Part shown: piece after piece, positions 16,355 through 46,251 of the stretch
Numbering within the stretch: the first letter of the stretch is position 1
Layout of the letters: each line of letters starts with the position of its first letter
Assembly (NCBI RefSeq): GCF_002975435.1
Contig: NZ_PCPT01000003.1
Coordinates: 372,001 to 436,000 of the forward strand
Direction: 5' to 3'
Origin: Arthrobacter sp. MYb227
GTDB taxonomy: Bacteria; Actinomycetota; Actinomycetes; Actinomycetales; Micrococcaceae
DNA: 64,000 nt
Made by a program: the position numbers and the translations under genes
Notes under the pieces: model-generated
The model's input: the letters and a program-made list of their open reading frames with translations, nothing else
The model's database searches: none
What the model was told of the DNA's origin: nothing

Positions 16355-16610
16355 ATTACAAGCACCGGATATGCCATTGCTGCGCGTGGGGCAGAAGGGT
16401 GACTCCTATCCGCTTGAGCTTCAGTGATGCATCCATGACTTGGGCAAGTCTCAGCGGCTGTCAGTTTCCGTGACGTTCCGGCTGCGAAAGGTGCATAAAG
16501 TATTTAGAATGCCATCCACAATGATCGTTTATTCATGTTTTCATTGACCTCGGCTCGACGCTCTTGGCATGCTTGTGGTGGCACGCTCGTCATCTCACGA
16601 ATGGATAACC

Positions 16611-17189
16611 ATGCGAAAACTCGTGTATTACGTGGCTACAACACTTGACGGCTATATCGCTGGCCCGAACGGCGACGATCCAAGCGGTGCGGACTACTTT
16701 CCGCTCACGCCCGATGTCATCGAATTCATCATCGGACAGTACCCCGAAACGCTCCCCGGGCCTGCACGTACCGCGATGGGCATCGATGGCCCCCACAAGG
16801 TATTCGACACCGTCTTGGAAGGACGAGTGTCGTACGAGATCGGGCTTGCAGCTGGAATGACCGACGCGTACCCACACCTTCGCCACCTCGTTTTTTCAAC
16901 CACACTAAAAAGTCAGAACCCGGTTATCGAGATTGTCCGTGATAACGCACAGAAACGCGTCCGCGCACTTAAAGCCGAGGAAGGCAAAGACCTGTGGCTG
17001 GTGGGAGGCGGCAAACTGGCCCACTCCCTGCTGCCAGAAATCGACCGACTCGTACTGAAACAGAACCGGTCCATCATCGGATCTGGAATACCTCTCTTCA
17101 ACGGCCCCTTCCAGCCCCATATGTTCCAGCCGGTTGCAGAGACATTGCTCGACTCGGGCGTTCGCGTTCTCACCTACGATCGCGCCTGA
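16611..17189 (+). CDS. dihydrofolate reductase-like protein (RibD C-terminal domain family)
   Basis: A 192-residue protein of the DHFR/RibD-C fold. It begins RKLVYYVATTLDGYIAGPNGD, typical of this family, and ends with the NADP-binding DLWLVGGGKLAHSLLPE and LVLKQNRSIIGSGIPLF. Members are small cytoplasmic reductases, mostly of unknown substrate; it is not the folate-pathway FolA. ATG 16611 fits the family start, though the frame is open from 16569 and no clear Shine-Dalgarno is seen. Isolated between glpK and leuS; from 17190 to 17376 nothing is recognised. Confidence 0.85.
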   Translation: MRKLVYYVATTLDGYIAGPNGDDPSGADYFPLTPDVIEFIIGQYPETLPGPARTAMGIDGPHKVFDTVLEGRVSYEIGLAAGMTDAYPHLRHLVFSTTLKSQNPVIEIVRDNAQKRVRALKAEEGKDLWLVGGGKLAHSLLPEIDRLVLKQNRSIIGSGIPLFNGPFQPHMFQPVAETLLDSGVRVLTYDRA

Positions 17190-17376
17190 ACCATTTCTCG
17201 GCAAACCCATCAGGGAATGGTAGCCGTTGACTGGAATACCTCAGCTGTCCCCGTGAACGCCTTCTTGCCGGATCCGCAAAGCATTTCGGGTTTCTTCGGG
17301 TCGATTCTCCATCTAAACATCAGCTATCGTCTCCGGGGGCCGCATGATCAAGTGGGGCAATGTATTTGCATTGCGA

Positions 17377-17382
17377 TACACT
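17377..17382 (+). promoter_or_regulatory. -10 box of the leuS leader promoter
   Basis: TACACT is followed by 7 bases and the ATG of the leader peptide at 17390, so the transcript would begin at the peptide itself. No good -35 is visible. Confidence 0.5.
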
Positions 17383-17389
17383 GTAAAAC

Positions 17390-17416
17390 ATGAACGTTGA
17401 GCTTTTGCTAACCTAG
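17390..17416 (+). CDS. candidate leucine leader peptide of leuS (MNVELLLT)
   Basis: An 8-residue reading frame with three consecutive Leu codons (CTT TTG CTA, 17402-17410), none of them the CTG/CTC preferred in GC-rich genomes. It begins 7 bases after a TANNNT box and its stop codon ends in the first base of a strong hairpin, with a terminator-like hairpin right behind. The next gene is leucyl-tRNA synthetase. This arrangement is what ribosome-mediated attenuation by charged tRNA-Leu would need. Evidence is positional; translation is not shown. Confidence 0.6.
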   Translation: MNVELLLT

Positions 17417-17442
17417 CCGTATGGGATTTACACCCGTACGGC
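17416..17442 (+). promoter_or_regulatory. first hairpin of the leuS leader
   Basis: GCCGTATGGG (17416-17425) pairs with CCCGTACGGC (17433-17442), 10 bp with one G-U pair and a 7-base loop. Its left arm begins 6 bases after the last Leu codon, so a ribosome stalled on the Leu codons would cover it. Confidence 0.6.
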
Positions 17443-17443
17443 C

Positions 17444-17469
17444 AGCCCCTTGCATGCAAGGGGCTTTTG
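17444..17469 (+). terminator. attenuator-type terminator before leuS
   Basis: AGCCCCTTG-CATG-CAAGGGGCT is a perfect 22-base palindrome (17444-17465) followed by TTTGTGTG, one base after the first hairpin and about 110 bases before leuS. It would stop the leader transcript unless prevented. I could not identify a clear antiterminator by eye. Confidence 0.65.
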
Positions 17470-17578
17470 TGTGTCACGACTTGGCTCAAAATAATGAATT
17501 TGACGCATTCGCACCACCACAGCATGCCCAACAACGTTCCAACATACGCGCACGATGAATAAGAAGGCGAACACGATA

Positions 17579-20095
17579 GTGAGCACTGAGCCTACCGGCA
17601 CCGAAACCGCGGACCACGAGTCCACCGCAGCGGCCTACAGCTTCCAGGAGATGGAAGCCAAGTGGGCCCCGGTGTGGGACGAGCTAGGTGTCTTCACCCC
17701 CACAGATGATGGCAGCAAGGAACGCCGCTACGTCCTAGACATGTTCCCGTACCCCTCCGGCGACCTACACATGGGTCACGCCGAAGCCTTCGCCATGGGA
17801 GATGTCGTCTCACGTTTCTGGCGCCAGCAGGGCTACGACGTCATGCACCCGATCGGCTGGGACTCCTTTGGCCTGCCGGCCGAGAACGCAGCTATCAAGA
17901 ACAACGTGCACCCCAAAGAGTGGACGTACAAGAACATCGACACTCAGGCCGCCAGCTTCAAGCGCTACGCGATCTCCGCCGACTGGGATCGCCGCCTGCA
18001 CACCTCGGACCCGGAATACTACCGCTGGACCCAGTGGCTGTTCACCCGCTTCTACGAAAAGGGCCTTGCCTACCGCAAGAACCACCCGGTGAACTGGTGC
18101 CCGAAGGACCAGACCGTGCTGGCCAACGAACAGGTAGTCAACGGTGCCTGTGAACGTTGCGGCACCCTGGTGACCAAGAAGTCGCTGAACCAGTGGTACT
18201 TCAAGATCACCGACTACGCAGATCGCCTGCTCGATGACATGGAAGAGCTGCACGGGCACTGGCCCGAGCGCGTGCTTGCCATGCAGAAAAACTGGATTGG
18301 CCGCTCCGAGGGCGCCCACGTTGACTTCATCATCGAAGCCACCGACACCTTAGAAGCGCACAAGACCACGGTCTTCACCACCCGCCCGGACACCCTGCAT
18401 GGGGCAACGTTCTTTGTTGTCGCTGCCGATGCCGAGCTGGCCAACGAACTGGTCACCGACGAGCACCGTCAGGCCCTGGAGGACTACCAGGAACAAGTCA
18501 AGGCGCTGTCGGAGATCGAACGCCAGGCGACCGAGCGCGAAAAGACAGGGGTGTTCACCGGCCGTTACGCGATCAACCCGCTCAACGGGGCGAAGCTGCC
18601 GGTCTGGGCCGCCGACTACGTGCTGGCCGAATACGGCACCGGTGCCATCATGGCCGTGCCCGCGCACGACCAGCGCGACCTTGACTTTGCACGCACCTTT
18701 GATCTGCCGATCCGCGTGGTGCTTGACACCGGCGAGGAAGACCCGGCAATCAGCGGTGTCGCGACCGCCGGAGAAGGCACTCTGGTCAACTCCGGTGAGC
18801 TCGACGGCCTGCCCAAGGAAGCGGGCATTGCCCGGGCCATTGAAATTGTTGAGGCTGCCGGAACCGGCGAGAAGTTCGTCAACTTCCGCCTGCGTGACTG
18901 GCTGCTGAGCCGCCAGCGTTTCTGGGGCACCCCGATCCCGATCATCCACTGCGAATCCTGTGGTGAAGTCCCGGTTCCGGATGATCAGCTGCCGGTGCGC
19001 CTGCCCGATAACCTGCGTGGCGAAGAATTGGCGCCCAAGGGCACTTCCCCGTTGGCAGCGGCCAGCGACTGGGTCAACGTGCCGTGCCCGAAGTGTGCGG
19101 CACCTGCCAAGCGCGATACCGACACCATGGACACCTTCGTGGATTCCTCCTGGTACTTCCTGCGCTTCGTCTCCCCGCACTTCACCGAGGGTCCGTTTGA
19201 CCCCAAGGCCGTGCGCGATTGGATGCCGGTGGGCCAGTACGTCGGTGGCGTTGAGCATGCGATCCTGCACCTGCTCTACTCGCGCTTCTTCACCAAGGTC
19301 ATCTATGACCTGGGCCTGATCGATGTGCAGGAGCCGTTCAGCGCCCTGTTGAACCAGGGCCAGGTGCTCAATGGCGGTAAGGCCATGAGCAAGTCGTTGG
19401 GTAACGGCGTGGATCTTGGCGAGCAGCTTGATAAGTACGGCGTTGACGCGGTGCGTCTGACCATGATCTTCGCTTCCCCTCCGGAAGACGATGTTGACTG
19501 GGCGGATGTTTCCCCGGGTGGTTCGCAGAAGTTCTTGGCTCGCGCCTGGCGCGTGGCTCAGGATGTCACCTCGGAGCCCGGCGTGGATCCGGCCGCCGGA
19601 GACAAAGCCCTGCGCCACGTGACCCACAAGACGGTTCATGAGGCGGCGAACCTGCTCGAAGGCGGCAAGTTCAACGTCGTCATCGCCAAGGCCATGGAAC
19701 TTGTCAACGCGACCCGCAAGGTGATCGACTCCGGCGCTGGCGCCGCGGATCCAGCCGTTCGCGAGGCCGCCGAGGCAACCGCAATCATCCTCTCGCTCTT
19801 CGCCCCCTACACGGCAGAAGACATGTGGGCAGCACTTGGTCATGAGCCAGCCATCGCCAACGCCGGTTGGCCGGTAGTTGACGAGGCGCTGCTGGTGGAA
19901 GATACAATCACCGCGGTAGTGCAGATCAAGGGCAAGGTCCGTGCTCGCCTCGAGGTACCGGTAGACATTACCGCCGAAGACCTTGAAGCCCTGGCACTAG
20001 CCAACGAATCGGTCATCCGTTTCCTCGACGGCGCGGCGATCAACAAGGTCATCGTGCGTGCCCCGAAATTGGTGAACGTGGTACCGGCTTCCTAG
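17579..20095 (+). CDS. leuS: leucyl-tRNA synthetase
   Basis: Class I synthetase that charges tRNA-Leu. The 838-residue cytoplasmic protein has the HIGH-type motif [11 protein letters not shown] near residue 64, the inserted CP1 editing domain in the middle ([15 protein letters not shown]), and the KMSKS-type AMSKSLGN near residue 600, then the anticodon-binding domain and short C-terminal domain. GTG 17579 is chosen because GAAGG lies 11 bases before it; ATG 17555 would add 8 residues and has no clear ribosome-binding site. The leader peptide and terminator just upstream suggest control by leucine supply. Confidence 0.96.
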
Positions 20096-44355: not shown

Positions 44356-44361
44356 TATGTT
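44356..44361 (+). promoter_or_regulatory. -10 box of the leuA leader promoter
   Basis: TATGTT, 6 bases, then ATG 44368 of the leader peptide. Upstream (44087-44355) I see nothing else except the small repeat TTGTT-C-AACAA at 44320-44330. Confidence 0.5.
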
Positions 44362-44367
44362 AAACAA

Positions 44368-44427
44368 ATGCATTTCGGACTACTACAGCTACTAAGCCGC
44401 CGCGGCGAGACCCACATAGGACTCTAA
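44368..44427 (+). CDS. leucine leader peptide of leuA (MHFGLLQLLSRRGETHIGL)
   Basis: A 19-residue peptide starting 6 bases after a TANNNT box. It has LLQLL coded by CTA CTA CAG CTA CTA (44380-44394); CTA is the rarest Leu codon in GC-rich actinobacteria, which would sharpen ribosome stalling when charged tRNA-Leu is short. The stop lies 84 bases before leuA. Leucine leader peptides before leuA are known in actinobacteria; the identification here rests on codons, promoter spacing and position. Confidence 0.72.
   Translation: MHFGLLQLLSRRGETHIGL

Positions 44428-44496: not shown

Positions 44497-46251
<1,755 letters not shown>

Follow-up and report, generated by a model that had tools for sequence, protein, structure and literature searches.

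The enterobacterial trp, leu and phe attenuators place their control codons in a short open reading frame (ORF) with a terminator before the gene, and have a further helix that is mutually exclusive with this terminator. For leuS, attenuators were predicted in 2005 in Streptomyces coelicolor and S. avermitilis (PMC1262725), and the S. lividans leuS leader, leuL2, was described from RNA-seq in 2021 (PMC8079986). As far as the available portions of these two papers go, a leuS-specific leader peptide is therefore not as unusual as the original prediction on the present locus had supposed, and no leuS attenuator was found for Micrococcaceae in the open-access full-text literature accessible in part. 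Attenuators with branched-chain codons in a leader ORF also precede ilvB genes, as in the accessible accounts of C. glutamicum ilvBNC, the ilvB-II motif and M. tuberculosis ilvB1 (PMC11857589, PMC10272879, PMC13236596). Replacement of LVVI by AAAA abolished induction in the M. tuberculosis ilvB1 leader, according to the available text (PMC13236596), and the substitution of possible regulatory codons of S. coelicolor ilvB is reported in the accessible part of PMC1262725 to have had no effect, a result that we count against the main attenuation reading proposed below. The LEU element before leuA (PMC1262725) shares a Leu-run leader peptide with the leuS element, but differs from it by a pseudoknot, by pairing of the Leu codons with the leuA Shine-Dalgarno sequence and by having no typical terminator (PMC8079986).

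The window analyzed here is a stretch of 64,000 nucleotides of Arthrobacter sp. MYb227, in which an element of this kind lies directly before leuS. The original description of its parts (TACACT, 7 nt, ATG, MNVELLLT, hairpin, 1 nt, palindrome, T-rich run, leuS) proved exact to the base, and they are located as follows.

17377-17382, + strand: -10 box TACACT (TAnnnT) of a predicted leaderless promoter, 7 nt upstream of ATG 17390
At or next to the A of ATG 17390, + strand: predicted transcript start, from the placement of the -10 box
17390-17416, + strand: leader ORF MNVELLLT, ATG AAC GTT GAG CTT TTG CTA ACC TAG, stop TAG at 17414-17416
17402-17410, + strand: putative regulatory Leu codons CTT TTG CTA, at -14, -11 and -8 from hairpin 1
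17416-17442, + strand: hairpin 1, GCCGTATGGG / CCCGTACGGC, 10 bp with one G-U, 7-nt loop
17443, + strand: 1-nt spacer (C) between hairpin 1 and terminator
17444-17475, + strand: predicted intrinsic terminator, perfect 22-nt palindrome AGCCCCTTGCATGCAAGGGGCT at 17444-17465, tail TTTGTGTGTC
17561-17567, + strand: Shine-Dalgarno-like AAGAAGG of leuS, 11 nt upstream of GTG 17579
17579-20095, + strand: leuS, leucyl-tRNA synthetase, putatively regulated gene, GTG start, TIGR00396 966 bits (cut-off 548)

The first base of hairpin 1 is the G of the leader stop codon TAG, and GTG 17579 is likely the start of leuS, preferred over ATG 17555 given the AAGAAGG 11 nt upstream of the former. The RNA from 17384 to 17480 (97 nt) folds at -40.6 kcal/mol against -24.2 (sd 3.3) in 200 shuffles, none of which was equally stable (z -5.0). 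A simple terminator scan scored 17444-17465 as terminator-like, and three terminator-like sites were found on both strands of 17100-17700 with 0.6 expected. The terminator tail, at 17466-17475 in the window and in relatives, is kept past the T run, as in TTTTGTGTGTC and TTTTCATGTC. A UG step lies 6-9 nt 3' of the terminator stem in 131 of the 136 parsed leaders described below, and perhaps reflects a pause at the release point.

Judging from the published portions available, the element shares with the Streptomyces leuS attenuator its gene, a Leu-rich ORF that is leaderless (by prediction here), a hairpin and a U-tract. As in Streptomyces, a Leu-run ORF directly precedes leuS, and a hairpin stands between this ORF and a terminator with a T-rich tail.

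The conservation of the element was assessed without any RNA model in genomes chosen for their LeuS. This protein was found in 59 of 59 genomes, the window's own among them, and the upstream regions were read in 50 of these, at loci picked by LeuS homology alone and free of the spacing bias of the covariance model R1 described below. The leader precedes leuS in all 15 same-genus genomes, with the peptides MNVELLLT, MNVALLLT, MNAVLLLS and MNAVLLLT, and MSKMMLLP at locus L017. A parser searching for TAnnnT, a short Leu ORF, a hairpin, 0-3 nt and a terminator passed 36 of the 50 loci and none of 300 block-shuffled copies, which places the element above chance. A Leu codon 8 nt before hairpin 1 (-8) earns no reward from this parser and is nevertheless present in 30 of the 36 passing loci. 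A comparison of leuS upstream regions, as proposed with the original prediction, found the Leu run and both hairpins kept. The sequences are related, and these and the following counts are accordingly not independent of one another.

Among the best 80 of 587 LeuS relatives, R1 finds the element in 49, and a parser favouring -8 likewise passes 49. It is present, within these best 80, in Paeniglutamicibacter sulfureus, Arthrobacter, Pseudarthrobacter, Paenarthrobacter, Sinomonas, Zafaria, Actinomadura, Planobispora and others. Within the same best 80 of 587, no leader was found before leuS in the records of Kocuria, Rothia, Nesterenkonia, Micrococcus and Yaniella, nor in four records named Glutamicibacter (L233, L250, L258, L260); these leader-free Micrococcaceae have probably lost it. 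A record titled Sporosarcina beigongshangi (L268) carries an Arthrobacter-like leuS with this leader, at 82% LeuS identity, and is probably mislabelled or contaminated.

The covariance model R1 was built from 21 leaders hand-picked out of 36 (alignment A1, MAFFT) and includes the codon-to-hairpin spacing, so that its matches lean to that geometry. In the window's own genome, the present element is its one match at E <=1. In the family, R1 matches 79 of 149 genomes and 18 of 32 genera, once in each genome, and all 78 family matches that were read (all but that of G145) lie before leuS. The other 70 family genomes are without a match, although weak ones may be missed, which makes leuS attenuation dispensable and was counted against the main reading. 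Matches were found in 107 of 297 genomes of the order and in 26 of 396 of the phylum. LeuS follows in 67 of the 71 loci L053-L123, 48 having the window's short type and 19 a distant long one, and in 84 of the 100 loci L124-L223 (48 short, 36 long). It begins 60-420 nt past the element start in 131 of these 151 R1-found LeuS loci; in the remaining 20 the LeuS match begins inside or beside the element and runs on into LeuS, because the long query held leader residues or a contig end clipped the stretch. The leader occurs before two very different LeuS types (L083, L086, L102-L110 and others), which hints either at gene replacement behind a kept leader or at a spread of the leader.

Although built from genomes of 2.8-4.8 Mb, R1 also finds the peptide MRAVRLLLSEPR in five genomes (G532, G606, G617, G787 and G595) of one family, in which a sixth genome has MRAVRLLLSGPR; the six measure 6.1-9.9 Mb. 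In the available text of PMC8079986, MRAVRLLLSEPR is letter for letter the leuL2 peptide of S. lividans, and the five genomes are probably Streptomyces, to judge by this match and by their size; a single model thus finds the window element and these probable Streptomyces leaders. MRAVRLLLSEPR also occurs in four genomes of another class (L111, L114, L116, L119). Compared with the six larger genomes, the window peptide is three codons shorter, TAG replacing a sense codon, its hairpin 1 is shorter and its LeuS is of the other type. CTTAGCTAG in Micrococcaceae matches CTTAGCGAG in these six genomes, which indicates that a single change shortens the peptide and leaves the RNA unchanged.

The geometry of the element was analyzed in 136 leaders parsed from 201 LeuS loci, of which 191 gave two-hairpin candidates, 182 an ORF and 160 distinct leaders before the final selection (29 kept from L003-L052, 40 from L053-L123 and 67 from L124 on). 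The long-type LeuS query held residues translated from the L048 leader, and some long-type upstream windows were cut at the leader; true elements were missed in several of these loci for this reason, and the cut loci count among the 24 dropped and the ten that gave no candidate (e.g. L102, L105, L106, L107, L109, L110). L048, L118 and L188 were likewise dropped, and some of the dropped loci are without the element. TAnnnT stands 6-7 nt upstream of the start codon in 135 of the 136 leaders, a count biased upward since the parser rewards the box and leaders free of it are discarded. The Leu codon nearest to hairpin 1 occupies position -8 in 109 leaders. In the 115 leaders registered on a Leu at -8, Leu is also found at -11 in 102 and at -14 in 95, while the amino acids encoded by the flanking codons at -17, -20 and -5 vary. 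The Leu codons themselves are exchanged synonymously, with CTC, CTG, TTG and CTT at -11 and CTC, CTT and CTG at -14. At -8, CTT dominates (93, against 13 CTA, 8 CTC and 1 CTG), above its share of the Leu codons of leuS (14%) or of 38 long window ORFs (17%; stop to stop and uncurated), so that the RNA sequence may also play a part there.

The stop codon is not fixed, being at -2 in 70 and at +7 in 38 of the 136 leaders. Hairpin 1 and the terminator are separated by 0 nt in 47 leaders, 1 in 63, 2 in 17 and 3 in 9, this 0-3 nt range being the parser limit, with nothing above 3 allowed. Hairpin 1 itself spans 16-77 nt (sd 11.0). Along the chain, 28-87 nt separate the last Leu codon from the terminator; through the folded hairpin 1 this distance has a median of 9 nt (range 3-19, sd 1.7). 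The stop codon lies at a median of 31 nt from the terminator both in early-stop leaders (before the hairpin, n=87) and in late-stop ones (+6 to +11, n=46), hairpin 1 being longer in the latter (median 38 vs 28 nt); it lies within 27 nt in 47 of the 136 leaders and within 15 nt in 1.

Both hairpins covary, as the covariation search proposed with the original prediction bears out. In A1 (21 sequences), 94.9% of the cells are paired and 11 of 16 pairs show two-sided changes, with 0 of 500 shuffles as good and slid controls reaching 38-52%. In A2 (100 sequences), which was fitted to the R1 structure, the values are 95.6% and 15 of 16 pairs, again with 0 of 500 shuffles as good, and each of the ten pairs of hairpin 1 shows two-sided variation.

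The same layout was found before a gene other than leuS or before a contig end in 16 of the 100 loci L124-L223 and, among the phylum matches, in L120, L121 and L123, a shared geometry that is partly selected since R1 favours such spacing. Citramalate synthase (cimA) lies downstream in six of them (L179, L182, L190, L196, L218, L219); TIGR00977 is the best NCBIfam match, under its cut-off, of the fragments in L179, L218 and L219, and the other three were assigned by likeness. Five of these six leaders parse, all with ATT (Ile) at -8, in LLIT, LVIT and IIIP; one cimA leader carries three consecutive Ile codons. Acetolactate synthase (ilvB) follows in nine loci (L206 checked by profile, the others by likeness). 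Six of ten parse in this set, taken with L207 at a contig end, and have Leu at -8 after GTA (Val) at -11, so that the ilvB control codons read Leu-Val-Leu (LVL); L213, L215 and L217 are off by 1-2 nt, and L214 is misparsed. Before leuA, L121 parses with MSQNLLLT at -14/-11/-8 and L120 fails to parse. L123, where the contig ends, looks like a real element, and L122 like a false match. The same layout would thus carry control codons naturally swapped by pathway: Leu for leuS and leuA, Ile for cimA and Leu-Val-Leu for ilvB.

Two further leaders were seen in the window's genome. A second leader in the window, at 44356-44427 before leuA (44542-46239), looks leaderless (TATGTT, 6 nt, ATG 44368) and encodes MHFGLLQLLSRRGETHIGL; it resembles both the LEU element (PMC1262725) and the leader of S. 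lividans leuA, MRFGLLLLSCRGEGL (PMC8079986), as presented in the accessible text. The ilvB leader, MQIRTEVLLVIKR (L304, 1205-1246), precedes a large hairpin with a terminator next to it, and R1 gave no match at E <=5 in this ilvB region.

These features argue, with good confidence, that the element controls leuS by ribosome-mediated transcription attenuation, with charged tRNA-Leu as the signal sensed. This reading builds on the conservation, the covariation, the synonymous Leu codons, the codon swap by pathway and the fact that the element stays with leuS. It upholds the main proposal, that leuS has a leucine attenuator: promoter box, Leu codons and the two hairpins are all kept, and the codons change with the downstream pathway. 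A leaderless transcript would start at the ATG of the 8-codon ORF and its three Leu codons would be translated. By default, with ample leucyl-tRNA, the ribosome would pass the Leu codons and leave hairpin 1 melted or without effect, the terminator would fold and transcription would end ~110 nt upstream of leuS. When leucyl-tRNA is scarce, the ribosome would wait at a Leu codon, hairpin 1 would fold directly ahead of it, the terminator would fail and leuS would be transcribed. This polarity corresponds to that of the ilvBNC and ilvB1 models, in which stalling favours the first hairpin, as given in the available text (PMC11857589, PMC13236596).

Pairing was calculated at equilibrium in the 115 leaders for successive ribosome positions, with an assumed ribosome cover of 12 nt (the A-site codon plus nine bases). 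Such a cover hides none, one and four bases of the hairpin 1 arm with the A site at -14, -11 and -8, respectively. The median pairing of hairpin 1, 0.99 when ribosome-free, was 1.00, 0.89 and 0.40 at these three positions and 0.00 from -5 on, and that of the terminator remained at 0.98-0.99 at every position. By this calculation, hairpin 1 alone of the two hairpins responds to the position of the ribosome. The place at -8 is the last from which a codon still permits hairpin 1, a limit that would account for the control codons going no further. The constant pairing of the terminator at equilibrium means that the switch must be kinetic or steric, invisible in silico, and was counted against the attenuator. 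A UG also lies 10-13 nt 3' of hairpin 1 in 97 of the 136 leaders; this and the UG after the terminator stem are raw counts, no more than compatible with hairpin 1 being a polymerase pause hairpin.

A classical antiterminator, that is a helix sharing terminator bases and forming on stalling, as proposed for C. glutamicum ilvBNC or as in the trp operons, is an alternative switch. Antiterminator hairpins have been named for two Streptomyces leuS leaders (PMC1262725) and, in C. glutamicum ilvBNC, the antiterminator hairpin lies directly before the terminator, an adjacency like that of the window element, and overlaps it by GCC, with support from mutations (PMC11857589), both according to the portions available. 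The leuS family is without such a conserved overlap. The flanks of hairpin 1 in the 115 leaders are less complementary than when reshuffled (-2.16 vs -2.63 kcal/mol, 200 of 200 shuffles being stronger), and the leader pairs with the terminator no better than shuffles do. A boundary-sharing antiterminator was rejected as a family feature on this flank test, although hairpin 1 can be extended into the terminator in a few members (L043, L175, L177, and L041 by eye), in which one is possible. Hairpin 1 and the terminator, but no additional helix, were recovered by a covariation scan of 98 well-filled columns, outside the long inserts, in 100 sequences. Beyond these two, the highest-scoring column pairs fall within the -10 box, whose register shifts, and scattered weaker pairs (z 4-6; e.g. 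42-170, 46-55, 24-220) make no helix. A conserved trp-type helix exclusive with the terminator was thus not found in these tests, and with the enterobacterial attenuators the leuS family shares the control-codon ORF and the terminator but not this helix. The original prediction had itself noted the lack of a clean antiterminator at the window's locus, which holds for the family in the flank, pairing and covariation tests, and the classical switch appears unlikely. Two other structures were encountered: the Leu codons (CUCCUU-like) could pair with the AGGGG arm of the terminator in many members, but this was rejected as a median of 0.4 of shuffles are as good and its logic would also be inverted, and single folds show a third hairpin from GUGUGUC, 3' of the terminator and past the decision point.

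Less probable still is the mechanism originally advanced, in which a ribosome stalled over the left arm of hairpin 1 would block termination by freeing the right arm or by abolishing the hairpin. A ribosome on the third Leu codon does cover ~4 nt of the arm, at which point the median pairing falls to 0.40, but hairpin 1 stays paired at the first two Leu codons, a non-stalled ribosome covers the arm more than a stalled one and melts it, and the pairing and covariation tests reveal no conserved partner for the right arm once it is freed. The original polarity is reversed in the present proposal: a ribosome waiting at the Leu codons would let hairpin 1 form, and one codon further on would remove it.

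An unregulated plain terminator or decayed leader, such as the terminator of an upstream gene, would agree with the calculated independence of terminator pairing from the ribosome. The gene upstream of leuS in the window, at 16569-17189 between glpK and leuS, is DHFR-like (RibD_C, Pfam E 2e-6) and occurs upstream in only 1 of the 136 parsed loci, the window's own, and GlpK in 56 of them; among the 63 loci with ~1.5 kb of upstream DNA, 32 have neither. In these neighbourhoods the element goes with leuS, independently of any one upstream gene. Its keeping of this place, together with the survival of the Leu codons through synonymous changes and their replacement by Ile or Leu-Val-Leu before cimA and ilvB, makes a plain terminator very improbable. 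A riboswitch or T-box, to which a structured leader before an aminoacyl-tRNA synthetase gene might point, is hardly credible, as the codons and the frame are what is kept, and Rfam gave no family at gathering score in the whole window and, at E <=5 in 17300-17620, two minus-strand matches only, far under their gathering scores.

For the ribosome-mediated attenuator, the way in which a waiting ribosome would defeat the terminator may lie in a relay, a tentative hypothesis that we regard as possible and rather doubtful, in which hairpin 1, once folded, keeps the stalled ribosome close up to the terminator. The folded hairpin would take up the length of chain that separates the Leu codons from the terminator, and the stalled ribosome would abut the terminator and RNA polymerase and keep the final base pairs open. 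A ribosome that has moved one codon beyond the last control place would melt hairpin 1 and free the terminator; at the stop codon it would stand a median of 31 nt off and block less. Counting covered bases, the effective distance between ribosome and terminator on stalling is estimated at nearer 14-17 nt. According to the accessible text of PMC4824070, ribosomes near a terminator repress it in E. coli, 10-15 nt from the A site to the hairpin being argued to be needed for full terminator folding, with a fitted limit of 27 nt. Taken with the 9-nt geometry, these distances suggest that the folded hairpin 1 would put the stalled ribosome in the repressing range. The stop codon would mostly fall outside this range, but the 47 of 136 leaders in which it lies within 27 nt blur the relay and led us to lower our confidence in it. 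Tandem hairpins raised termination in M. smegmatis gyrA, as reported in the part of PMC8355165 available; this fits the ribosome-free state but indicates that a neighbouring hairpin does not by itself have to counteract a terminator. With a comparable reserve, the leaders could represent an antiterminator-free class in which hairpin 1 would serve as a folding ruler, setting the distance between codon and terminator at ~9 nt whatever its own length (16-77 nt). In the open-access literature on steric antitermination and on citramalate synthase leaders, accessible in part, neither the relay model nor such leaders were recognised.

The kind of element described here is already known, and its novelty lies in its presence in Micrococcaceae and in a strict geometry that suggests a variant mechanism. 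On covariation and codon evidence, the leuS attenuator known from Streptomyces now reaches Micrococcaceae and further families of actinobacteria, and its layout recurs with different codons ahead of other genes for branched-chain amino acids. R1 can be used to annotate such leaders, which Rfam did not match here. The codon places at -14, -11 and -8, the short gap and the absence of a conserved antiterminator lead to a sharp question, whether a ribosome plus a neutral hairpin can defeat a terminator; if the relay is true, these actinobacteria would possess a portable cassette, set before leuS, leuA, cimA and ilvB with codons exchanged at the same three places.
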